A stretch of DNA of 36,612 nt from the NCBI GenBank assembly GCA_003599365.1, contig QZJR01000064.1, positions 1 through 36,612 on the forward strand, given 5' to 3'. Below, piece after piece: positions 4,309 through 35,344 of the stretch. Made by a program: the position numbers and the translations under genes. Source of the stretch: Deltaproteobacteria bacterium (GTDB lineage: Bacteria; Desulfobacterota; UBA8473). The first letter of the stretch is position 1, and each line of letters opens with the position of its first letter. The notes beneath the pieces were generated by a model, which worked only from the letters and a program-made list of their open reading frames with translations, was not told the DNA's origin and searched no databases.

Positions 4309-5568
4309 TTAAGCTGGGCAAGAGTATTTGTTCTTAAACACCTCTACAGCCCTAAATAACTGTTCATCATCCCTATACGCTCTAAAATTTTCGATGGAGT
4401 CCAAATCTATTTCTTCTATGCCATTTTTACTTATAAAGAGAGGGACTCCAAGGCATATTTGATTTTCTCCTATGCATGTCTTCTTAGTCAGAGTTATAAC
4501 TGTACGGATATTGCTCTGAAATGCTTTTATGATGGCTATTACGGCAATTCCAACAGGAAAATCCGCCCTTTCTCCACAGTAGTATTCAATAAGGGGTTTA
4601 ATAGATAACCGTGTGGGTATAGGATAGCCGTTTATATAATTAAAGACCCCTTCGCTTCCTCTCTGGACCATCTCATAAGCCTTGTTGTATACCTCATCCA
4701 CATCCGGATTTTTCTTAAGGGTAGGAGAGACATTTTCCAATATTTGGCCCGTTGGTGGTTTGCAGTTTATCCGAAGCATACTCTTATAAATTGCCATACC
4801 TTTCAATTCATGATTGCCACCAACCAGACCATCTACAGAGATTTCTACGGGCAAATTTAACTCGTCCCTGATTTCCCTCTGAAACCTCATAGAATCCAAC
4901 ACAGGTCCTATGGCAACAACCCTCTTGAAATACTTGGAAAAGACCCACGCACTCAACTCGTTTGGATTGCTTACCACTATTACCATTTCAGGGGTATGGG
5001 AAGGGTTTTCTTTGATGGATTTAGCACAATTCTCAAAAATAGCCTTGTTCTCATGCATCAGGGTTGTTCTATCGGAAGCCTTACCTGCACCTTTTGGAAT
5101 GGTCTTTCCCGCACACATTATTAGGAGTTCTCCATCAACTCTGTCATAAGAATCGACAAATTCGATATTCGGTAAAACACCACCCATCCCGTCTTTTAAC
5201 TTTTCAATCAAGGCGTAATAAAAGTTCTTGTCTTTCCCTTGAGAGGCCTTCTTCGGTCTGCCGAATAGCTGGATCTTTTTGCAGTCTGGTAATGCTTGTT
5301 CCCTCAGGATAAGCTTGAGAATTTCGCTTCCCATTGTTCCGCTTACACCAATAATGGTTACAGTCTTAAATCTGCCTATAGCACCATAAGGGTCTTTTTG
5401 GTACTTTAGCTTCCTGGAAAAGTAATTCCTATCTCTTAAGAGATTTTTTTTCTCCTTATGTGTTGAATACCATCTGGACAAATATTTAAAGGTGACCCCC
5501 ATCTCTTTTGGATTTTCTAATTTTCTTCCTGTCTCGAATTCTATACAAGGACTATGTATTTCTTGCAC
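4309..5568 (-). CDS. Malate/lactate dehydrogenase-like NAD-binding protein
   Basis: 419 aa with 'TVTIIGVSGTMGSEILKLIL' (Rossmann), 'ELLIMCAGKTIPKGAG...', 'VIVVSNPNELSAWVFSKYFKRVVAIGPVLDSMRF' and 'VGGNHE', matching the LDH/MDH layout. Confidence 0.75.
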   Translation of the reverse strand: MQEIHSPCIEFETGRKLENPKEMGVTFKYLSRWYSTHKEKKNLLRDRNYFSRKLKYQKDPYGAIGRFKTVTIIGVSGTMGSEILKLILREQALPDCKKIQLFGRPKKASQGKDKNFYYALIEKLKDGMGGVLPNIEFVDSYDRVDGELLIMCAGKTIPKGAGKASDRTTLMHENKAIFENCAKSIKENPSHTPEMVIVVSNPNELSAWVFSKYFKRVVAIGPVLDSMRFQREIRDELNLPVEISVDGLVGGNHELKGMAIYKSMLRINCKPPTGQILENVSPTLKKNPDVDEVYNKAYEMVQRGSEGVFNYINGYPIPTRLSIKPLIEYYCGERADFPVGIAVIAIIKAFQSNIRTVITLTKKTCIGENQICLGVPLFISKNGIEEIDLDSIENFRAYRDDEQLFRAVEVFKNKYSCPA

Positions 5569-7104
5569 TTACCCCTCAACCCTCGGAAAGATAGGTTCAA
5601 TCTTTGAGACGGTAATGTTCTCTCCTATTTTACCCCATTTGGCTATGTCATCCAATCTCTGAGTGCGCAGGTTCTCCTTTATCCCCAAAGATGCCCATAT
5701 CTTCTCCGAAGTTGTCGGCATAAATGGAAAGAGAAGAACAGTAATAACCCTAAGGGCTTCTACGATATTGTACAATACGGCATTCAATCTTTCTGTTTGA
5801 TTTTCTTCCTTTGCCAGTATCCAGGGTGAAGTCTCGTCTATGTATTTATTCACAGCGGCTATGAATCCCCAGATGGCAATTAATGCCTTGTTAAATGCCA
5901 GTTGCGCCATCTGATTAATTACATCTTTAACAGTCGTTGAAGCATCATTTCTCAATCTCTCATCAACCTCCAGGTGTCCGGTTGGTTTATGAAGGACCCC
6001 CTTGAAATATTTAATAACCATTGCCAGGCTGCGACTCGCCAAATTCCCAAGATCATTTGCCAAATCAGAATTCAACCTGTTAACTAAAGCACTCTCACTG
6101 AAATTGGCATCCAATCCAAAGACCATCTCTCGCATAAGAAAATACCGAAAGGCATCGAGGCCATACTTGTCTTTTAAACTAAGGGGGTTGATGATATTCC
6201 CAAGACTCTTGGATATCTTGTTTTTATCTATGTTCCAGTAGCCGTGAACATTTAAATGCTGATATGGTTCAATGCCGGAAGCCTTTAGGATGGTTGGCCA
6301 GTAAATACCGTGGGGTTTTAGTATATCCTTCGCGATCAGGTGTTGGGTTGATGGCCAGAATTTGTGATAAAGATCAGAGTCAGGATAACCAACAGCAGTT
6401 AGATAATTGATAAGGGCATCAAACCAAACATAGGTGACATAGTCTCTATCAAATGGCAGAGTTATTCCCCAATCCAGCCTTGATTTTGGACGCGAAATAC
6501 ACAGGTCTTCTAAAGGATCTCTCAAAAAGGCCAATACCTCATTGCTATATCTTTCAGGACGAATAAAACCAGGGTGGGACTTGATGTACTCTATCAACCA
6601 ATTCTGATACTTGCTCATTCTAAAGAAATAGTTCTTTTCTTTTATAAACTCAGGGGCAACCTTATGATCAGGGCATTTGCCATCCGCAAGTTCCTTTTCA
6701 TAGTAAAAACGTTCGCATCCAAAACAATAATATCCCCCATATTCACCAAAGTAAATATCCCCTGCGTCGTATACTTTCTGAAGAATCAACTGAACAACTT
6801 TCTTATGGTCTTCATCGGTTGTTCTGATAAAGTAATCATTAGAAATGGAAAGCTCCGGCCAGATATTTCGGAATAGCATGCTTATCCTATCAGCATATTC
6901 TTTTGGGTTTTCCCCGGCAGCCTCGGCAGCTCTAACAACCTTATCCCCGTGTTCATCCGTTCCTGTAACGAAAAAGGTTTCCCTCCCATACAGTATGTTG
7001 AAACGGTTGAGAACATCTGCGGCTATAGTAGTGTAGGCATGTCCCAGATGGGGTTCAGCATTTACATAGTATATAGGAGTAGTTACATATAATGTTTTAC
7101 TCAT
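5569..7104 (-). CDS. metG: Methionyl-tRNA synthetase
   Basis: 511 aa; 'YYVNAEPHLGHAYTTIAADVLNRF' (HIGH-type), 'CFGCERFYYEKELADGKCPDH' and 'NKISKSLGN' (KMSKS-type). Confidence 0.97.
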   Translation of the reverse strand: MSKTLYVTTPIYYVNAEPHLGHAYTTIAADVLNRFNILYGRETFFVTGTDEHGDKVVRAAEAAGENPKEYADRISMLFRNIWPELSISNDYFIRTTDEDHKKVVQLILQKVYDAGDIYFGEYGGYYCFGCERFYYEKELADGKCPDHKVAPEFIKEKNYFFRMSKYQNWLIEYIKSHPGFIRPERYSNEVLAFLRDPLEDLCISRPKSRLDWGITLPFDRDYVTYVWFDALINYLTAVGYPDSDLYHKFWPSTQHLIAKDILKPHGIYWPTILKASGIEPYQHLNVHGYWNIDKNKISKSLGNIINPLSLKDKYGLDAFRYFLMREMVFGLDANFSESALVNRLNSDLANDLGNLASRSLAMVIKYFKGVLHKPTGHLEVDERLRNDASTTVKDVINQMAQLAFNKALIAIWGFIAAVNKYIDETSPWILAKEENQTERLNAVLYNIVEALRVITVLLFPFMPTTSEKIWASLGIKENLRTQRLDDIAKWGKIGENITVSKIEPIFPRVEG

Positions 7105-7547
7105 GTTTCAAACTCAACATTTACCTTAAAGATTTTTTTGGCAGGGAGATTGAGGATGTCTTTAATGGCTGTTTTTTTTGATATATCAGCGAGACTATCC
7201 CTAATCTCCTCTTTGGATTCACCAATAAAAGTAAACCATACATTATACTCATGTTCTCTTTTGTAGTTATGTGTTATGCCCTGGTATGAATGTAGTACTT
7301 TAACAAAATCTTGAATCTTTTCAGGGGGGACCCTGGCCGCACACAGTGTGCTTGTAAAACCCAGTTTCTTTGAGTCAAAGGAAGCACCGAGGCGTCGAAT
7401 ATAGCCTTTATGTATCAATTGCTTAACCCTCTCTATCATATTGTCTTCAGAGATATTTAATTCCTCTCCCAGCACTTTAAATGGTCTGGAACTGATGGGG
7501 AACTTAGACTGAATCCTATTCAATATTTCCCTATCTAACCTGTCCAT
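7101..7547 (-). CDS. AsnC/Lrp-like protein of the siroheme decarboxylase (AhbA/AhbB, NirD/L) family
   Basis: 148 aa: N-terminal HTH 'LDREILNRIQSKFPISSRPFKVLGEELNISEDNMIERVKQL', 'GYIRRLGASFDSKKLGF', 'GITHNYKREHEYNVWFT'. ATGA overlap with metG. Confidence 0.72.
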   Translation of the reverse strand: MDRLDREILNRIQSKFPISSRPFKVLGEELNISEDNMIERVKQLIHKGYIRRLGASFDSKKLGFTSTLCAARVPPEKIQDFVKVLHSYQGITHNYKREHEYNVWFTFIGESKEEIRDSLADISKKTAIKDILNLPAKKIFKVNVEFET

Positions 7548-10163: not shown

Positions 10164-10790
10164 ATGGGTATTCCTGAAAGGAAAGAAAAAGAAAAGATAA
10201 AGAGGCGGAAAGATATCCTTTGGGCAGCAAAAAATAGTTTTTCGAAAAAGGGTTTCATGAATGCCACAATAGAGGAAATTGCCCAGGAGTCTGAACTAAG
10301 TACGGGCACTATCTATCTTTACTTCTCGGGAAAAGAAGAATTGTACGTTTCTCTGATAGTCGAAACCTATGATATTCTTATCGAAGAACTTGGAGAAGTG
10401 CTAAAACAAGATGTGGCGCCTGATGAGTTATTGGTAAGTATAGCTACTACCTACTACGACTTTTGTGAAAATCATCCGGATCATTATAGGATTTTAAACT
10501 TCATTGTTAACGAGCATCTAAATTTAAAGCTGACACCTGAATTGACAGAGAAGATTGATGATAAAACCGATATTATCTTTAAAATGCTTAGTGAAGTGAT
10601 TAAACATGGGATTGGGATAGGCATATTCAAACAAATAGATGTCTGGGACGTTACCAGCCTTTTTTGGAGTAATATACATGGTATAATACAGACACAAACT
10701 ACCATAGATTATTTGAAAGGCAGAACTACTGATATTGAGTCTTTAATTAGAAAAAACATAGAACTGATGTTTTTAGCCATTAAGGTCTAA
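10164..10790 (+). CDS. TetR/AcrR-family transcriptional regulator
   Basis: 208 aa; 'RRKDILWAAKNSFSKKGFMNATIEEIAQESELSTGTIYLYFSGKEELY', the canonical TetR HTH. Confidence 0.92.
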   Translation: MGIPERKEKEKIKRRKDILWAAKNSFSKKGFMNATIEEIAQESELSTGTIYLYFSGKEELYVSLIVETYDILIEELGEVLKQDVAPDELLVSIATTYYDFCENHPDHYRILNFIVNEHLNLKLTPELTEKIDDKTDIIFKMLSEVIKHGIGIGIFKQIDVWDVTSLFWSNIHGIIQTQTTIDYLKGRTTDIESLIRKNIELMFLAIKV

Positions 10791-10817
10791 ATATTATATT
10801 TTCAGGAGGCTTTACCT

Positions 10818-11651
10818 ATGGCGACAGTAAGGGAGGTAAACGAGGCTTTTTTGGAGAAGGGGTTGGAGATAGAGCTTCCATTTCCGGATGATTGGTTAGT
10901 GAAGAAGGTTGACATATTGGAGAAGAGGGACAGTTCAGACAAGGTTGGAGTTCTTTTAGCTTTGAAGTTAATAGATGACATGGGCAGAGAGATATCAGAG
11001 CTTTATTATGGGGAGAGTTTAGTAAAGAGGGAGCGCAAAGTTCGGGAGGCAAAGATAGAGGTGCCTTCCAAGACTGAATTACTTCCTTTGAGGTCTAAGA
11101 TGGATTTTGACAGTGATGAAGAGGCGTGGAGCTACATAAAGGGGGCATTTATCCATTTATTAAAAGACAAGGGATACAGTATATGGGGGGATAATATTTC
11201 TAGTGGTATAGATTCATCAGTCCTTTCCCTTTTAGAAAAGGGGGAGTTGGACATATATGCGGAGAAGGATAGCAGGGGATTTCTCATAAGAGTAGCCTTA
11301 CGGTCTACAAAGGAGGATGCTTATAAGAAGGCCATTGGTTTAGTGGAGCTAAGGAAGGATTACGGGAGCCTATACGACTATGGTTTAGTAATACCTGCAT
11401 TTCAGGATTCATTAGGGGTAAAGTGGCGGGATCAGGAGTTTTGGCTTACAGTGAACAGCGAGTATTTATCAATACATCGTATAGGGTTATTTGCCGTTGA
11501 CAACCTGGATCCCAATCGGGTATATCCTCACACAGTATACGCCAAAGAGCGGGAGATATTCAGGTACATGGTGAATTCCAGCAGGCAGTGGTCAGTAGTA
11601 AGGGGGAGGTATTTACAGCAGAGAGCAAGCAGAGTTGTCAGTTCAAAGTAA
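10818..11651 (+). CDS. Protein of unknown function, first gene of a chelatase-like/CooC operon
   Basis: 277 aa, RBS AGGAGG upstream, 27 bp after the TetR gene and 23 bp before the MoxR-like ATPase. No family recognised. Confidence 0.8.
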   Translation: MATVREVNEAFLEKGLEIELPFPDDWLVKKVDILEKRDSSDKVGVLLALKLIDDMGREISELYYGESLVKRERKVREAKIEVPSKTELLPLRSKMDFDSDEEAWSYIKGAFIHLLKDKGYSIWGDNISSGIDSSVLSLLEKGELDIYAEKDSRGFLIRVALRSTKEDAYKKAIGLVELRKDYGSLYDYGLVIPAFQDSLGVKWRDQEFWLTVNSEYLSIHRIGLFAVDNLDPNRVYPHTVYAKEREIFRYMVNSSRQWSVVRGRYLQQRASRVVSSK

Positions 11652-11674
11652 ATTAATACAAAGGAGGGGTTTTA

Positions 11675-12706
11675 ATGATAATAGAAGGATTAAAAGAAAC
11701 GATTTTGGGTTGTGTTGACAGTGGTAAAGATCCGTTGGATGTTATATTTGGTCAGGAGGATGCCAAAGAGAAGATATTGGCGTCCATACTGGCAGATCAT
11801 CACGTATTGATAGAGGGGCCTCCTGGAGTAGGCAAGACCACATTGGCCAAGTATCTTGCATCCATATTGCCGCCTGTTAATGCAGTAAAGGGGTGTCCAT
11901 TTCACTGTGATCCCAGCAAACTGGTTTGTCCTTTATGCATAACCAAATCCAAAGAAGGCAACCTAGAGGTAGAGAAAGTAGAGGGTTCCAGGAGATTTGT
12001 CAGGATACAGGGCAGTCCTGATTTAACCGCAGAGGATCTTTTAGGAGACATAGATCCTACCAAGGCATTCAAATTTGGGCCTCATGATTATAGGGCATTC
12101 ACCCCTGGGAAGCTTTTAAAGGGCAATCGTGGTATAGTTTTCTTTGATGAGTTGAACAGAGTGCCGGAGAAATTGCAGAATGCCTTACTTCAGGTATTAG
12201 AAGAGAGAATAGCAACCATAGGGCCGTATGATGTGGACTATGCCTCCAACTTCATCATGTTAGCCACCATGAATCCCAGAGAGCATGCGGGAGTCGAAGA
12301 GCTATCAGACGTCTTACTTGACAGATTTGACATAGTTAGGATGGGGTATCCGGAGACACCGGAGAGAGAGAGGCAGATACTGGTAAAGTATGGATTAAAG
12401 ACAGAGGGTATAGAGATACCTGACGAAGTAATAGACTCAATAGTCAAGTTAGTCAGAGCCACCAGAGAAGAGCCCTGGGACAAAGAGTTGGACCAGGGGG
12501 CCAGTGCCAGGGCAGGGCTATCCTTATACGAGAAAGTACAGACCATAGCCTTACTTCAGAAGCGCAAAACCGCTACCATAGATGATGTAAGGAGCATGGC
12601 AGTGTCGTCTATGGGCAGCAGAATAAAGCCTTCACCTGAGTCCAAGTTTTATGATGATCCCCTTGGATTGATACAGGAGATATCGGAAGGCATATTAGGG
12701 GGGTAG
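11675..12706 (+). CDS. MoxR/BchI-type AAA+ ATPase
   Basis: 343 aa; Walker A 'GPPGVGKTT', Cys insert 'GCPFHCDPSKLVCPLC', Walker B 'GIVFFDELNR', sensor 1 'IMLATMNP'. Confidence 0.92.
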   Translation: MIIEGLKETILGCVDSGKDPLDVIFGQEDAKEKILASILADHHVLIEGPPGVGKTTLAKYLASILPPVNAVKGCPFHCDPSKLVCPLCITKSKEGNLEVEKVEGSRRFVRIQGSPDLTAEDLLGDIDPTKAFKFGPHDYRAFTPGKLLKGNRGIVFFDELNRVPEKLQNALLQVLEERIATIGPYDVDYASNFIMLATMNPREHAGVEELSDVLLDRFDIVRMGYPETPERERQILVKYGLKTEGIEIPDEVIDSIVKLVRATREEPWDKELDQGASARAGLSLYEKVQTIALLQKRKTATIDDVRSMAVSSMGSRIKPSPESKFYDDPLGLIQEISEGILGG

Positions 12707-13507
12707 ATGGATATGAGAGCAAGGGCAACAACCATTGCCATCTCTGGAAAAGGAGGGACTGGCAAAACCATGCTATCATCACTTCTGGTCAGGTATTTCT
12801 CCAGATATGGCAGTGTCTTTGCCATAGATGCGGATCCTGACTCAAACCTGCCGGAAGCCTTAGGGGTAAAGATCAAGAAAGACGTGGGGGCAGTAAGGGA
12901 AGACATACTGGACATCAGAGCCGACAAGGTATCCCCATCCATGACCAAGAAAGACCTATTTGAGATGGAGCTTTTACAGATCATAGAAGAAGGCAAAGCC
13001 TTTGACCTACTGGTCATGGGCAGGTCAGAAGGAGCGGGGTGTTATTGTACCATAAACCACATACTAAGAGAAGTAATAGACACCAAATCAAAAAACTACG
13101 ACACAGTGATAATAGACTGCGAAGCTGGTCTAGAGCACCTGAGCAGGAGGACCACCAGAGGTGCTGACATAATGATAGTAGTGACCGATGCCACCAAGAA
13201 GGGCATACTCACAGCCAGGAGAGTAAAAGAGCTATCTTTGGAGGTAGACATAGAATTTGACAGAATAGTTGTAATAGCCAACAAAGTCACCCCTGAGACC
13301 AGGCATATAATGGAGGAATTGGGTAGAGAAAACGGATTAGACATAATTGGATACGTACCTTTTGATCCATTAATTTCTCAGTATGATGCTATGGGGAGGT
13401 CCCTTTTGGAGTTACCTGAGGAAGCCCCTTCTGTTTCATCGGCCTATGAGATATTTGGCAGGATAAGGCAAGAAGCGGAGGAAAAGTACAGGAAGAGGGG
13501 AGGGTAA
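12707..13507 (+). CDS. CooC-like nickel/metal-insertion P-loop ATPase
   Basis: 266 aa; deviant Walker A 'GKGGTGKT', 'AIDADPDSNLPEALG', 'GRSEGAGCYCTINHILRE' (CxC typical of CooC), 'VIIDCEAGLEHLSRRTTRGAD'. Starts directly after the preceding stop codon. Confidence 0.9.
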   Translation: MDMRARATTIAISGKGGTGKTMLSSLLVRYFSRYGSVFAIDADPDSNLPEALGVKIKKDVGAVREDILDIRADKVSPSMTKKDLFEMELLQIIEEGKAFDLLVMGRSEGAGCYCTINHILREVIDTKSKNYDTVIIDCEAGLEHLSRRTTRGADIMIVVTDATKKGILTARRVKELSLEVDIEFDRIVVIANKVTPETRHIMEELGRENGLDIIGYVPFDPLISQYDAMGRSLLELPEEAPSVSSAYEIFGRIRQEAEEKYRKRGG

Positions 13508-13508
13508 A

Positions 13509-15701
13509 GTGTTAAGGAGAGAGATTCGGGAGCGTATAGAGAGTAACACCCTGGAGCATAACAAGGAACTATTATTTGAAGGATTTCAGATAGACGAAGC
13601 CAGGCAGGAAGACATAATATCCACCCTTCATACAGGGCATCATCTTTTAATACTGGGGCCTCCTGGATGTGGGAAGACCGTATTGGCCGAGAAGCTTGGC
13701 AGAATATTGGGAGACACAGAAGTAATAAAGGGATGTCCTGTGAACTGTGCCCCTTCTCATCCTGATTGTCCCTGGTGTTTATCAAGGGGCAACGGTTCCA
13801 AGACAGAGACAGAGATAATCCCTGGCAGAGACAGAATAAAGAGAGTACAGGGCAGTCCCGAGCTGGTGCCTGAGGACCTGATAGGGGCATTGGATCCTGA
13901 TTCTGCGGCATTTGAGTATGGCATACACGACATACGGTCATTCACCCCTGGCAAGCTATTAAGGGCCAATCGTGGTATACTCATACTCGACTTCATAGAC
14001 AGAATGCCGGAGCGGGTATTAAACGTTCTACTTTATGCCTTAGAGGGAGACACGGTAACCATAGGCAGCTACGAAGAGAAAATACCCCTTGACATCCTCA
14101 TCATTGCCACAGGAGGAGACAGAGTACTAAAGACCCTTTCCCTTGACATGATAGACCACTTTGACATAATAAAAATGGGCTACATAGCAGAAGAGGAAAA
14201 AGAGAGAGCCATAATCATGGACAGAGAGGGATGGAAGGGAGAGGAATTTGACAAGGCACTGAGAATAGTAAGAATGACCAGAGAGCATACAGACCTTCAT
14301 AGGGGAGTAAGCACCAGAGGCGGGATAAAATTTGCCGAACTCATACCCATCCACAAGAGGCTCAAAATAGAAGACACTGACGACATCCTAAAGAGAGCCT
14401 CAGTAGTATCCCTTCCCCACAGGATAGAAGTAGCGCCCCATGCAGAGGCAGTAAGGAGACCTGAAGAGATAATAGAAGAAATAGTACAAGAAGTAATAGC
14501 AGGAGAAGAGAAAAGAGAAGAGCTGGTCACCCTGTCCAAAGACGACATACTCAACCTGGTAGAAGAGATAGCCAGAGAAGACAAACTCAGAAAACCCTTA
14601 AAGCTGGGATTCTTTGACATCCTTCTAAAGAGAGTACAGCGTTTTCCTGAGACCAGATTGGCCAAGCTTCACAAAGAGATGATGAGCCAGATGGAGGACA
14701 TCTATATAGAGCGGCATCTCAAAGACAACATAACCCAGGAGATACTCGAAGACATAGAAGAGAGGCGGAAATATCGAGACAAGCTTCTGGCCGACTACAA
14801 AAAGAGCCTAGAGCAAGAGGCATTAAAAGAAACCTTAGCCCTTTTAGAGAGAAAGAGCATCTTAGAGCGGGACAAGACAGGGTGGAACCTGAGCAGAAAG
14901 GGCATAACCTTTCTCCTAGAGAAACTATCTCCGAGACTATGGGAGAACGTCAACATCTCAGGAGAGGGGAAGCACAAGACAGGCAAAAAGCTAGCCACAG
15001 GAGAGGGCAGAATAGTAGGAGTGCGCAAGTACAGATTAGGAGACAGGTACAAAGACGTCTCCTTAAAAGACACCATAAGAGAAGTCATCAAAAATCGCAG
15101 AGAGACAGTAACCAAAGAAGACATCATGGTAACCAAGAAAGACATCAGGACCAAGATGGACATCATCCTAGTAGTTGATCTATCTGGCACCATGTCACAG
15201 TTGGAGAAGCTTTGGTATGCGAAAGAGAGCGCCATAGCCTTATCCATGGCCAGCACCAAATACAAAGACAGATTAGGGGTAGTATCCTTTTCCAACCTGG
15301 CAGATGTAGTAGTAGAGATAACAGACAGTCCTTACAGAGTGACCGAGAAAATACTCGACTTAAACCTTCACGAGAATGCCTTTACCAACATAGGGTATGG
15401 GTTATTAAAGGCTCGGTCGGTATTTATGCGTCAGCGTCGGGGAGATGCCAACCAGCACATAATCTTAATATCAGACGGGGATGCGACAGCGCCGCATCCT
15501 TCACCAGAGAAGTATGCTATAAGAGAGGCTATAAAGACAGCCAGGAAGGGGATAACGATCTCCTGTGTATGCATCAATGAGAAGTCAGCCAATCCGGAGC
15601 TTATGAAGAAGATATCCCGGATAGGCAAGGGCAGAATATACATGATAGGCGAAGCAGGAGACATAACCTCCGCACTTATGGAAGAAAGAAGCAGGATGTA
15701 G
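13509..15701 (+). CDS. AAA+/VWA fusion protein (chelatase D-subunit-like)
   Basis: 730 aa; Walker A 'GPPGCGKTV', Cys insert 'GCPVNCAPSHPDCPWC', altered Walker B 'GILILDFIDRM', C-terminal VWA with MIDAS 'IILVVDLSGTMS', 'FTNIGYGL' and 'LISDGDATAPH'. Confidence 0.9.
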   Translation: MLRREIRERIESNTLEHNKELLFEGFQIDEARQEDIISTLHTGHHLLILGPPGCGKTVLAEKLGRILGDTEVIKGCPVNCAPSHPDCPWCLSRGNGSKTETEIIPGRDRIKRVQGSPELVPEDLIGALDPDSAAFEYGIHDIRSFTPGKLLRANRGILILDFIDRMPERVLNVLLYALEGDTVTIGSYEEKIPLDILIIATGGDRVLKTLSLDMIDHFDIIKMGYIAEEEKERAIIMDREGWKGEEFDKALRIVRMTREHTDLHRGVSTRGGIKFAELIPIHKRLKIEDTDDILKRASVVSLPHRIEVAPHAEAVRRPEEIIEEIVQEVIAGEEKREELVTLSKDDILNLVEEIAREDKLRKPLKLGFFDILLKRVQRFPETRLAKLHKEMMSQMEDIYIERHLKDNITQEILEDIEERRKYRDKLLADYKKSLEQEALKETLALLERKSILERDKTGWNLSRKGITFLLEKLSPRLWENVNISGEGKHKTGKKLATGEGRIVGVRKYRLGDRYKDVSLKDTIREVIKNRRETVTKEDIMVTKKDIRTKMDIILVVDLSGTMSQLEKLWYAKESAIALSMASTKYKDRLGVVSFSNLADVVVEITDSPYRVTEKILDLNLHENAFTNIGYGLLKARSVFMRQRRGDANQHIILISDGDATAPHPSPEKYAIREAIKTARKGITISCVCINEKSANPELMKKISRIGKGRIYMIGEAGDITSALMEERSRM

Positions 15702-15791
15702 CTACATACAGATGGAGGTATTTTTATGAATTAGCTTTCAGGGATACTTTTACAAAGCTCTCAAAGAGATTATCACTGAAGGGAGGATGCC

Positions 15792-16067
15792 ATGATAATC
15801 AACTATGGGTATACAGATGGCAGTGGAGAGTATTATATTGTAATAGACACTGACAAGTGTGACGGCTGTGGGGAATGTGTTCCCGCCTGTCCCCAAAATG
15901 TACTGGAACTTGCCGAGGATGATTACGGGGATATAGTTGTAAAGGTAAGAGATGAAGTAAAGAGCAAGGTTAGCTATGTATGCTTGGGTTTTAACCCGGG
16001 GTGTAGTAAAAATGAGGCGAATTGCCGAAGTGTGTGTAAACATGACGTAATCTCCCATACATGGTAG
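15792..16067 (+). CDS. Ferredoxin-type 4Fe-4S protein
   Basis: 91 aa; 'DKCDGCGECVPACPQNVLEL', then a second Cys set 'CLGFNPGCSKNEANCRSVCKHD'. Confidence 0.85.
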   Translation: MIINYGYTDGSGEYYIVIDTDKCDGCGECVPACPQNVLELAEDDYGDIVVKVRDEVKSKVSYVCLGFNPGCSKNEANCRSVCKHDVISHTW

Positions 16068-16117
16068 TGCCTTGGGGCTGAGGATTTGTGAATGCTTAAA
16101 CTCTGGGGGGACTTGAC

Positions 16118-16399
16118 ATGGAAGAGAAAGATATAAATCTGGATTTCTTTAAGAAATTTGATAATGCAAAAGATATCTTTTCTAAGATACTCAGGAAGGC
16201 AAAAAAAGAGATTATATTACAGGACAGGGAAGAATTCGTAGAGTCCATGGCTGACCAGATAATGGAGGATCACGGTCTAACTGAAGATGATGCCAATAAG
16301 TATGCAGACCTTGTATATCAAATATGGGAAGAGAGATGCGGTTGCAGCATTACCGCCCTTGACCAGGAAATATCAGCCATTAAGAAAAAGATTTTTTAG
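16118..16399 (+). CDS. Small protein of unknown function
   Basis: 93 aa; RBS-like GGGGGG upstream; charged, predominantly helical-looking sequence with 'ERCGCSI'. Co-directional with the upstream operon. Confidence 0.6.
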   Translation: MEEKDINLDFFKKFDNAKDIFSKILRKAKKEIILQDREEFVESMADQIMEDHGLTEDDANKYADLVYQIWEERCGCSITALDQEISAIKKKIF

Positions 16400-33044: not shown

Positions 33045-34193
33045 ATGCAAGCACGGTTCTACAAAGAAGAGCACCAAATTTTTCGTAAGGCTTTCAGGGA
33101 TTTTGTCAATAAGGAAATTAAACCTAATGCTGAAAAGTGGGAGCATGAAAAGGGAATTCCCAGGGATTTATGGCATAAGGTGGGTGAACAAGGGTATTTA
33201 TGCCCATGGGTTGATGAGAAATACGGAGGTTCCGGGGTCGGGTTTGAATACTCGGTGATTATCCACGAAGAGCTGTGCCGGTCTGAGAACACAGGTGTGC
33301 TGGGAATGGGTGTGCATAGCGACATTGTTGTTCCGTACATTGATCACCATGGAGATGAAAGACAAAAAGAGAAGTATCTCCCCGGATGCGCCAACGGGGA
33401 TATTATCACCTCTGTGGCAATGAGCGAACCGGAGGCCGGTTCTGACCTTGTCAGAATACAAACCAAGGCAATCAGGGACGGCAATGACTACATCGTTAAC
33501 GGACAGAAGGTTTTTATTACCAATGGTATCCACTGCGATCTGGCGATAGTGGCCGTAAAAACAGACCCAAAGGCGGACCCTCTTCACAAAGGCATTAGCA
33601 TACTTCTTGTTGAAAACGGGACCCCCGGGTTTTCCAAAGGCCGCAGTCTCGAAAAGACGGGCGCTCACAGTCAGGATACCGGAGAGCTATTCTTCGAGGA
33701 TTGTCGAGTGCCTCAGGAAAATCTGCTTGGTGAAGAAGGTGAAGGGTTCAAGTATCTGATGTACAACCTGCAACAGGAGCGTCTGGTCATGACGATGGAT
33801 GCCCAGGCTGTCGCGGAATACGTTCTGGAAAAAACCATCGAATATTGTAAGGTGCGGAATGTCTTTGGGCGTCCCGTTAGCAGATTTCAGCACAACACGT
33901 TTAAGATTGTTGAAATGGCTACCGAGGTCGAAATGGGTAGAGTCTTCTTCAATTCCCTCGTCGAAGATTTTATTAACGGAGTAGACATTACCCTGAAGGT
34001 GTCAATGGCCAAGTGGTGGATAACCGAGATGGCAAATCGCATTGCTTACCAGTGTACCCAGCTCCATGGAGGGTACGGGTGCATGAAAGAGTACTATGTT
34101 GCCAGGGCGTCGGGAGATGTCCGCTCTATGACCATCGCTGCCGGCACGAGTGAAATAATGAAGATTGTCATAGGAAGAATGATGGGGTTGTAG
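33045..34193 (+). CDS. Acyl-CoA dehydrogenase (copy 1 of tandem pair)
   Basis: 382 aa; 'VAMSEPEAGSDLVRIQTKAIRDGNDYIVNGQKVFITNG', 'RNVFGRPVSRFQ', 'QLHGGYGCMKEYYVARASGDVRSMTIAAGTSEIMKIVIGRMMGL'. Confidence 0.96.
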   Translation: MQARFYKEEHQIFRKAFRDFVNKEIKPNAEKWEHEKGIPRDLWHKVGEQGYLCPWVDEKYGGSGVGFEYSVIIHEELCRSENTGVLGMGVHSDIVVPYIDHHGDERQKEKYLPGCANGDIITSVAMSEPEAGSDLVRIQTKAIRDGNDYIVNGQKVFITNGIHCDLAIVAVKTDPKADPLHKGISILLVENGTPGFSKGRSLEKTGAHSQDTGELFFEDCRVPQENLLGEEGEGFKYLMYNLQQERLVMTMDAQAVAEYVLEKTIEYCKVRNVFGRPVSRFQHNTFKIVEMATEVEMGRVFFNSLVEDFINGVDITLKVSMAKWWITEMANRIAYQCTQLHGGYGCMKEYYVARASGDVRSMTIAAGTSEIMKIVIGRMMGL

Positions 34194-34195
34194 GG

Positions 34196-35344
34196 ATGGA
34201 AGCACGATTTTACAAGGAAGAGCACCACATCTTCCGTAAGGCTTTTAGGGATTTTGTCCATAAGGAAATCAAACCCTACGCGGAAAAGTGGGATGACGAG
34301 AAGAAAATCCCCAGGGAAATATGGCATAAGATGGGTAACCAAGGGTATCTATGTCCATGGCTCGATGAGAAGTACGGCGGTTCCGGGGTCGGGTTTGAAT
34401 ACTCGGTGATTATCCACGAAGAGCTGTGCCGTTCTGAGAACACAGGTGTGCTGGGGATGGGTGTCCATAGCGACATTATTGTTCCGTACATTGATCACCA
34501 TGGAGATCAAAGACAAAAAGAGAAATATCTCCCAGGATGCGCCAACGGGGAGATCATTACCTCTATCGTCATGAGCGAACCAGGGGCCGGATCTGACCTT
34601 GCCGCTATCCGTACCAAGGCTATCAGGGACGGCAATGACTATATTGTGAATGGCCAGAAGGTTTTCATTACCAATGGTATCAGCTGTGACCTGGCCATAG
34701 TGGCCGTAAAAACAGACCCAAAAGCGGATCCTCCATACAAGGGGATCAGCATACTTCTCATTGAAGACGGTACCCCTGGGTTTTCCAAAGGCCGCAGTCT
34801 CGAAAAGACGGGTACCCACAGTCAGGATACAGGGGAGCTGTTCTTTGAGGATTGTCGGGTACCTCAAGAGAACCTGCTGGGCGAGGAAGGTGAGGGGTTT
34901 CGGTACCTCATGTACAACCTGCAGCAAGAGCGTTTAGCCCTCACCATCGACGCCCAGGCTACAGCCGAATATGCTCTAGAGAAAACTATCGAGTATTGTA
35001 AGACAAGAAATGTATTTGGACGTTGTGTGAGCGAGTTTCAACACAATACATTCAAGATCGTGGAGATGGCTACTGAGGTCGAAATTGGTAGGGTTTTTCT
35101 TAATTCCCTCATCAAAGATTTTATTGATGGGAAAGATATTACCCTGAAGGTATCGATGGCCAAGTGGTGGATACCGGAGATGGCCAATCGGCTTGCCTAT
35201 CACTGTACACAACTCCACGGAGGATACGGATGCATGAAGGAGTATTATGTTGCAAGGGTGCCAGGAGATCTCCGTTCCCTGGCTATTGCCGGCGGCGCCA
35301 CTGAAGTGATGAAGGTTGTCATAGGAAGGATGATGGGCTTGTGA
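34196..35344 (+). CDS. Acyl-CoA dehydrogenase (copy 2 of tandem pair)
   Basis: 382 aa; near-colinear paralogue of the preceding gene, starting 2 bp after its stop: 'MEARFYKEEHHIFRKAFRDFVHKEIKPYAEKWDDEKKIPREIWHKMGNQGYLCPWLDEKYGGSGVGFEYSVIIHEELCRSENTGVLGMGVHSD'. Confidence 0.96.
   Translation: MEARFYKEEHHIFRKAFRDFVHKEIKPYAEKWDDEKKIPREIWHKMGNQGYLCPWLDEKYGGSGVGFEYSVIIHEELCRSENTGVLGMGVHSDIIVPYIDHHGDQRQKEKYLPGCANGEIITSIVMSEPGAGSDLAAIRTKAIRDGNDYIVNGQKVFITNGISCDLAIVAVKTDPKADPPYKGISILLIEDGTPGFSKGRSLEKTGTHSQDTGELFFEDCRVPQENLLGEEGEGFRYLMYNLQQERLALTIDAQATAEYALEKTIEYCKTRNVFGRCVSEFQHNTFKIVEMATEVEIGRVFLNSLIKDFIDGKDITLKVSMAKWWIPEMANRLAYHCTQLHGGYGCMKEYYVARVPGDLRSLAIAGGATEVMKVVIGRMMGL

Follow-up and report, generated by a model that had tools for sequence, protein, structure and literature searches.

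What does an operon do that joins a chelatase-like AAA+ ATPase and its VWA partner to a CooC-family ATPase, and which enzyme does it serve? The question is raised by the window analysed here, a stretch of 36,612 nucleotides that makes up contig C5 of a 1.9 Mb draft genome (G000), 74% complete. The TetR gene, the six open reading frames after it and the intergenic gaps (27, 23, 0, 1, 90 and 50 bp, in order from TetR to the 93-aa ORF) all lie at the coordinates that the original prediction claimed (Table 1), and a family search of the window proteins agreed with its assignments (AAA_3/Mg_chelatase, CbiA/MinD, VWA and Fer4). Elsewhere in the window, two adjacent 382-aa genes (33045-34193 and 34196-35344) share 86% identity, indicating a recent tandem duplication, and a gene for an AsnC/NirDL siroheme-decarboxylase-like protein (7101-7547) adjoins a methionyl-tRNA-synthetase-like gene.

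Table 1. Genes of the cassette and its surroundings in the window
Feature	Position	Strand	Evidence and remarks
TetR-family regulator	10164..10790	+	Family search; probable local regulator
P277, 277-aa protein, family unassigned	10818..11651	+	ORF; C-terminal residues ~105-251 like p168 family
MoxR/BchI-like AAA+ ATPase, active-type	11675..12706	+	Walker A/B intact; conserved four-Cys insert (GCPFHC..VCPLC)
CooC-family nickel-chaperone-like ATPase	12707..13507	+	GKGGTGKT P-loop and CXC motif (GCYC) conserved
BchD-like AAA/VWA protein	13509..15701	+	GTG start; Walker A, MIDAS DLSGT, four-Cys insert
Ferredoxin	15792..16067	+	Fer4; genus-level neighbour, outside conserved cassette
93-aa ORF	16118..16399	+	Genus-level neighbour, outside conserved cassette
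cobU	16568	+	Downstream of cassette
cobS	17195	+	Downstream of cassette

The four-gene core at 10818-15701 probably encodes a machine that uses ATP to mature an archaeal-type CODH/ACS-like complex, made of CdhA, CdhB and CdhC/ACS-beta homologues. The argument is computational and draws on gene content, conserved linkage and motifs, together with in-frame UGAs and selenocysteine (Sec) machinery in relatives. It begins with conservation. Comparison of neighbourhoods showed that homologues of the first gene are indeed linked to the ATPases and CooC, the lack of which would have refuted the original prediction: P277-AAA-CooC-VWA is kept together in G000, G001, G002, G005, G006 and G082, the last belonging to another family. 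When relatives were searched, P277 proved to have orthologues in five other members of its family, two of which also encode a 42% identical paralogue; in G004 an N-terminal fragment lies where a contig ends. In a scan of GTDB representatives P277 occurred within one family only, the G082 homologue coming from a survey of the phylum. The contigs of G003 and G004 stop inside or beside P277. In G184 the protein was not found, so P277 may be dispensable for the cassette.

The surroundings of the core are less constant. TetR is adjacent in this genus, p136 takes its place in G005 and G006, and in G082 a TetR 35% identical to that of the window stands at the opposite end of the operon. The VWA gene of G005 and G006 is followed by a gene on the opposite strand. 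The ferredoxin, the 93-aa ORF and cobU are common to the window and one genus-mate, G001, only; thus, the predicted operon stood as a four-gene core, and the ferredoxin and small ORF were rejected as conserved parts. The lineages compared are three families of one phylum, and those three families are the only independent evidence that they supply; the assemblies are drafts, mostly metagenomic.

The client can be read from the neighbours of the cassette in relatives. In G005 and G006, genes for a CdhA-like protein of 832 aa, a CdhB-like protein, a CdhC (ACS beta)-like protein and p136 (136 aa) precede the four cassette genes. In G082 the run is P277-AAA-CooC-VWA-CdhA-CdhB-ACS-p168-FeS-FwdB-amidohydrolase-TetR, in G184 it is AAA-CooC-ACS-VWA-CdhA-CdhB-p168-FwdB-FwdD-FeS, and a short contig of G047 holds VWA-CdhA-CdhB-ACS. 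Of 395 genomes surveyed across the phylum, 11 encode a homologue of the AAA/VWA protein (E<=1e-70), and these 11 include all eight genomes with a G005-like ACS (at least 45% identity over length, E<=1e-120; Fisher 1e-14, uncorrected for relatedness). The sole VWA protein found in G003, G004 and G007 is a 59-60% identical paralogue, located away from CODH genes in G003 and G004, where the operon runs off contig ends. Taken together, there is strong support for a CODH/ACS-like complex as the client, and the earlier proposal of an AAA+/VWA and CooC machine whose client lies elsewhere is well supported. The enzyme named as client is CODH/ACS (CdhA/CdhB/CdhC-like) and not benzoyl-CoA reductase, with a Fwd-like Mo/W protein as a possible extra partner.

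In the window's own genome, contig C19 carries cdhA-cdhB and the first ACS codons and then ends, while contig C48 carries p136, the gene that comes after ACS in relatives, with a 43-aa relic of the P277 C-terminus (91% identical) beside it. This relic suggests that the cassette has probably been relocated, and the simplest reading is that it once stood after cdhABC and moved within this genus. G000 presumably carries the full client gene. In several genomes ACS gene starts lie at contig ends (L074 and L075 on C9 and C29 of G004, L069, L076 and L077), some of them after a sigma-54 regulator and an acyl-CoA synthetase gene, and near-identical ACS copies probably break the assemblies. Stand-alone AAA/VWA paralogues (58-60%) occur in all eight family genomes (e.g., G000:C22:2837-5011), not beside CODH genes and, in several, near thiolase/acyl-CoA genes.

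The CdhA-like proteins match the alpha subunit of archaeal ACDS (CdhA/B/C) at near full length (2e-147), and the ACS-like proteins match ACDS/ACS beta (3e-87) as well as Moorella ACS. The canonical C-cluster ligands of CdhA, one His and five Cys, are incomplete: G005 CdhA has Asn for His250 and Ser for Cys278 (3cf4 numbering) and keeps the remaining four Cys, with corresponding losses in six others aligned. CdhA proteins without the His and first Cys ligands have already been catalogued as groups A-6 (N,S) and A-4 (D,P), confined to bacteria and found with ACS genes (PMC6344411). The G005 pattern, N,S,C,C,C,C, equals that of A-6, and the D,P of G184 at the first two sites equals that of A-4. 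Unlike archaeal ACDS and these two groups, the complexes described here have an ACS beta partner with a predicted Sec-Gly-Sec motif in some members. Every ACS aligned has the FeS cysteines (CxxC...C...C) and a nickel motif of UGU (six genomes) or CGC. Each genome encodes several CdhA-like paralogues (55-58% identical) with altered C-cluster ligands (C85, C61 and C19 in G000, and relatives), which coexist with an ordinary full-length ACS (C15 in G000).

Which metal site would be served? The likeliest target is the ACS A-cluster. A lesser possibility within the same explanation, still worth weighing, is that the target is the divergent C-cluster of CdhA. It is favoured by the role of CooC proteins in maturing CODH C-clusters (PMC6006190) and by a second P277 cluster that has CdhB and no ACS. 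Nevertheless, ACS lies inside the G184 cassette, it stands beside CooC and VWA at L078, a separate paralogous CooC-ACS-VWA set in G005, and the CdhA proteins have lost two C-cluster ligands.

The second P277-AAA-CooC cluster (L012, G002:C67; L013, G005:C290) holds genes for a CdhB-like protein, p168 copies, the 42% P277 paralogue, a PHP-like protein, AAA+, CooC and a FwdB-like protein, and L012 additionally encodes a FwdD-like protein, an FeS protein and a BcrC/HgdA-like protein. Its AAA+ is 87-93% identical to that of the window, which suggests gene conversion. No ACS gene was found near this cluster, so the machine may have CdhA/CdhB or the Fwd-like protein as its client. A third set, at L078 (G005:C156) and L082 (G002:C62), comprises a LysR-like regulator, CooC and a Cys-form ACS-like gene, with the start of an AAA/VWA paralogue at L078.

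Conceivably, the machine serves not the nickel sites but a Fwd-like Mo/W protein (FwdB/FwdD/FwdA-like), or Fwd and CODH/ACS joined in one complex, much as CoxD/CoxE serve the CuMo site of aerobic CO dehydrogenase; CoxD is an AAA+ protein that takes part in assembling the Cu-Mo cluster (PMC3471820). FwdB-like genes do occur in the G002:C67, G005:C290, G082 and G184 clusters, but no FwdB-like match was found in the 20 kb around the G005:C116 operon or the 17 kb around that of G006:C182, where CdhABC is present, and CooC points to nickel. This alternative is unlikely.

For the favoured target, the ACS A-cluster, the genes of several relatives hold a further feature. Both thiolates of the A-cluster Cys-Gly-Cys motif bridge the two nickels. 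The ACS genes of six genomes from two families (G002, G003, G004, G005, G006 and G184) carry two in-frame UGAs, at sites that read TSUGUFE (TNUGUFE in G184) and align with TSCGCFE of solved ACS, the A-cluster Cys-Gly-Cys (Cys595/597). In G005:C116 (L014) the UGAs lie at 4856-4864; L015, L071, L072, L073 and L136 carry the pair as well. The residues Ser594-Cys595 and Cys597-Phe598 surround the distal nickel site of ACS (PMC8910529). The CGC form is found in the ACS of G047 and G082 and in a paralogue in G005 and G002. A single TGA in the G047 and G082 genes was rejected as a Sec codon, since it reads as a normal C-terminal stop in proteins with Cys at both motif positions.

As explanations of the two UGAs, pseudogene stops, split genes and assembly errors are all very improbable. 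The reading as Sec codons does rest on DNA from draft, mostly metagenome-derived assemblies, and of the eight family genomes only G001, G004, G005 and G007 have a SelB over the curated cut-off (in G007 it shares a contig with cdhA-cdhB, about 0.9 kb apart). However, the two positions are the same in all six genomes, across two families and at 44-83% identity, the frame is conserved across the UGAs with no further internal stops, and most pairs of UGA forms, but no pair of Cys forms, show suppressed synonymous change over the 17 codons 3' of the UGAs. Moreover, tRNA-Sec over cut-off and SelA were found in all six UGA-ACS genomes. All six UGA forms also have in common a 27-nt hairpin after the UGAs, ATCCCTCA-GGT-TGAYGGGAT, with a bulged pyrimidine, which was not found in the three Cys forms folded and which resembles bacterial SECIS elements. 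It is the only common structure; RNA folds of individual 60-90 nt stretches did not agree with one another.

From the in-frame UGAs at Cys sites, the SECIS-like hairpin and SelA with tRNA-Sec in these relatives, we infer Sec decoding and predict a Sec-Gly-Sec nickel site in the ACS of six genomes. In the G000 draft, SelA, SelB and tRNA-Sec gave no matches over cut-offs and the relevant part of ACS is missing, so Sec use in the window's own genome would be by analogy. In G082 a cassette of this same type serves a Cys-form ACS, and the cassette is thus not Sec-specific. In [NiFeSe] hydrogenases Sec is a nickel ligand, as predicted here for ACS; the enzyme is a different one, and here both Cys of the A-cluster Cys-Gly-Cys would be replaced. 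A 2026 selenoproteome review lists HgcA (annotated CODH/ACS gamma) and not ACS beta.

The ATPases resemble several known systems. BchI and BchD of Mg-chelatase pair an active with an inactive AAA protein. The AAA+ protein of the cassette likewise keeps Walker A and B in AAA_3/Mg_chelatase domains of the MoxR/BchI type, and its AAA/VWA partner keeps Walker A and has lost the Walker-B Glu (ILDF versus FFDE; LDF, VDF or IDF in all seven aligned), while its VWA domain (PF00092, 5.8e-15) has a MIDAS motif, DLSGT, of the DxSxS/T form. BchI/BchD and TIGR02442 proteins, with the same arrangement of active I-type AAA+ and AAA-inactive D-type VWA subunits, are the best family and PDB matches. In contrast to them, however, these ATPases score far under the cut-offs and are linked to CODH/ACS, and the ORFs examined in related operons include no recognisable BchH/CobN large subunit. 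That they are cobaltochelatase-type subunits for cobalamin synthesis, as cobU and cobS next on the same strand and TIGR02442 (putative cobaltochelatase) as the best family for both might suggest, is scarcely credible and was rejected, because they score 100.7 and 105.1 bits against a cut-off of 779 and because cobU adjoins the cassette only in the window and G001, whereas the neighbours in G005, G006, G082 and G184 are CODH/ACS genes; to our knowledge, CooC also has no place in cobaltochelatase.

A second set of relatives comprises NorQ/NorD, CbbQ/CbbO, CoxD/CoxE and RavA/ViaA, in which a MoxR-type AAA+ protein also has a VWA/MIDAS partner beside a metalloenzyme. The present cassette differs in that the VWA partner has its own degenerate AAA domain, a CooC gene accompanies the pair, and the metalloenzyme served is a nickel CODH/ACS. 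As in the CooC/AcsF nickel-insertion ATPases, the CooC-like protein keeps a P-loop (a deviant Walker A) and a CXC metal site beside CODH/ACS genes, and its closest solved relative is CooC of a CODH/ACS complex (3kje, 3e-21). In Ch CooC-1 the CXC site lies at the dimer interface and binds Zn or Ni (PMC6006190). Unlike other CooC/AcsF genes, this one shares an operon with an AAA+/VWA pair and P277, a combination absent from the main texts of CODH context surveys.

P277 is, as originally noted, unrecognised: it has no Pfam or NCBIfam match, and a PDB sequence search gave nothing better than E 0.5. Its AlphaFold model is poor (mean pLDDT 52.6) and gave nothing below E 0.009 in Foldseek, so the operon-linked p168 family, present in the same CODH/ACS operons, was modelled instead (pLDDT 84.6). 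That model matched AF2093 (4.8e-7) and XisH-type proteins and, less strongly, restriction enzymes, consistent with a predicted restriction-endonuclease-like fold. The only tie of this fold to P277 is an hhalign match of residues ~105-251 to the p168 family (E 4.7e-4, from few sequences). A nuclease role of P277 appears unlikely, since the usual (D/E)xK motif is degenerate.

How might such a machine work? We infer a mechanical step followed by nickel insertion. NorQD twists its client and thereby drives the insertion of iron (PMC13036017). By analogy with BchI/BchD and NorQ/NorD, the AAA+ protein of the cassette would assemble into an active hexamer and act on its AAA/VWA partner, which is catalytically dead; the VWA (MIDAS) end would dock on the folded apo-enzyme, with P277 probably as client adaptor, and the ring would strain the docked apo-enzyme open so that the CooC/AcsF-like ATPase could supply nickel via its CXC site. 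In several relatives, the A-cluster so assembled is predicted to be built on Sec-Gly-Sec. More tentatively, the AAA+/VWA-CooC machine may assemble a selenolate-ligated dinickel A-cluster in a variant CODH/ACS, perhaps with Fwd-like and restriction-endonuclease-fold scaffolds and perhaps for chemistry other than the ordinary CO/acetyl-CoA reactions.

A literature search outside subscription journals turned up no characterised system that has these genes, as the original prediction had anticipated, and no paper on MoxR, CooC and carbon monoxide dehydrogenase together. The main text of one survey mentions no chelatase/AAA genes and no selenium (PMC6344411), and that of a 2026 CODH context study mentions no chelatase-like genes, MoxR or von Willebrand domains. 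Few nickel sites have been studied as much as the A-cluster of acetyl-CoA synthase, and its assembly is poorly known. An AAA+/VWA pair beside CooC and ACS would give CODH/ACS a remodelling machine, as is the case for chelatases, Rubisco and NO reductase, and the predicted Sec-Gly-Sec motif would, if true, place selenium naturally at both Cys of the nickel-binding motif.
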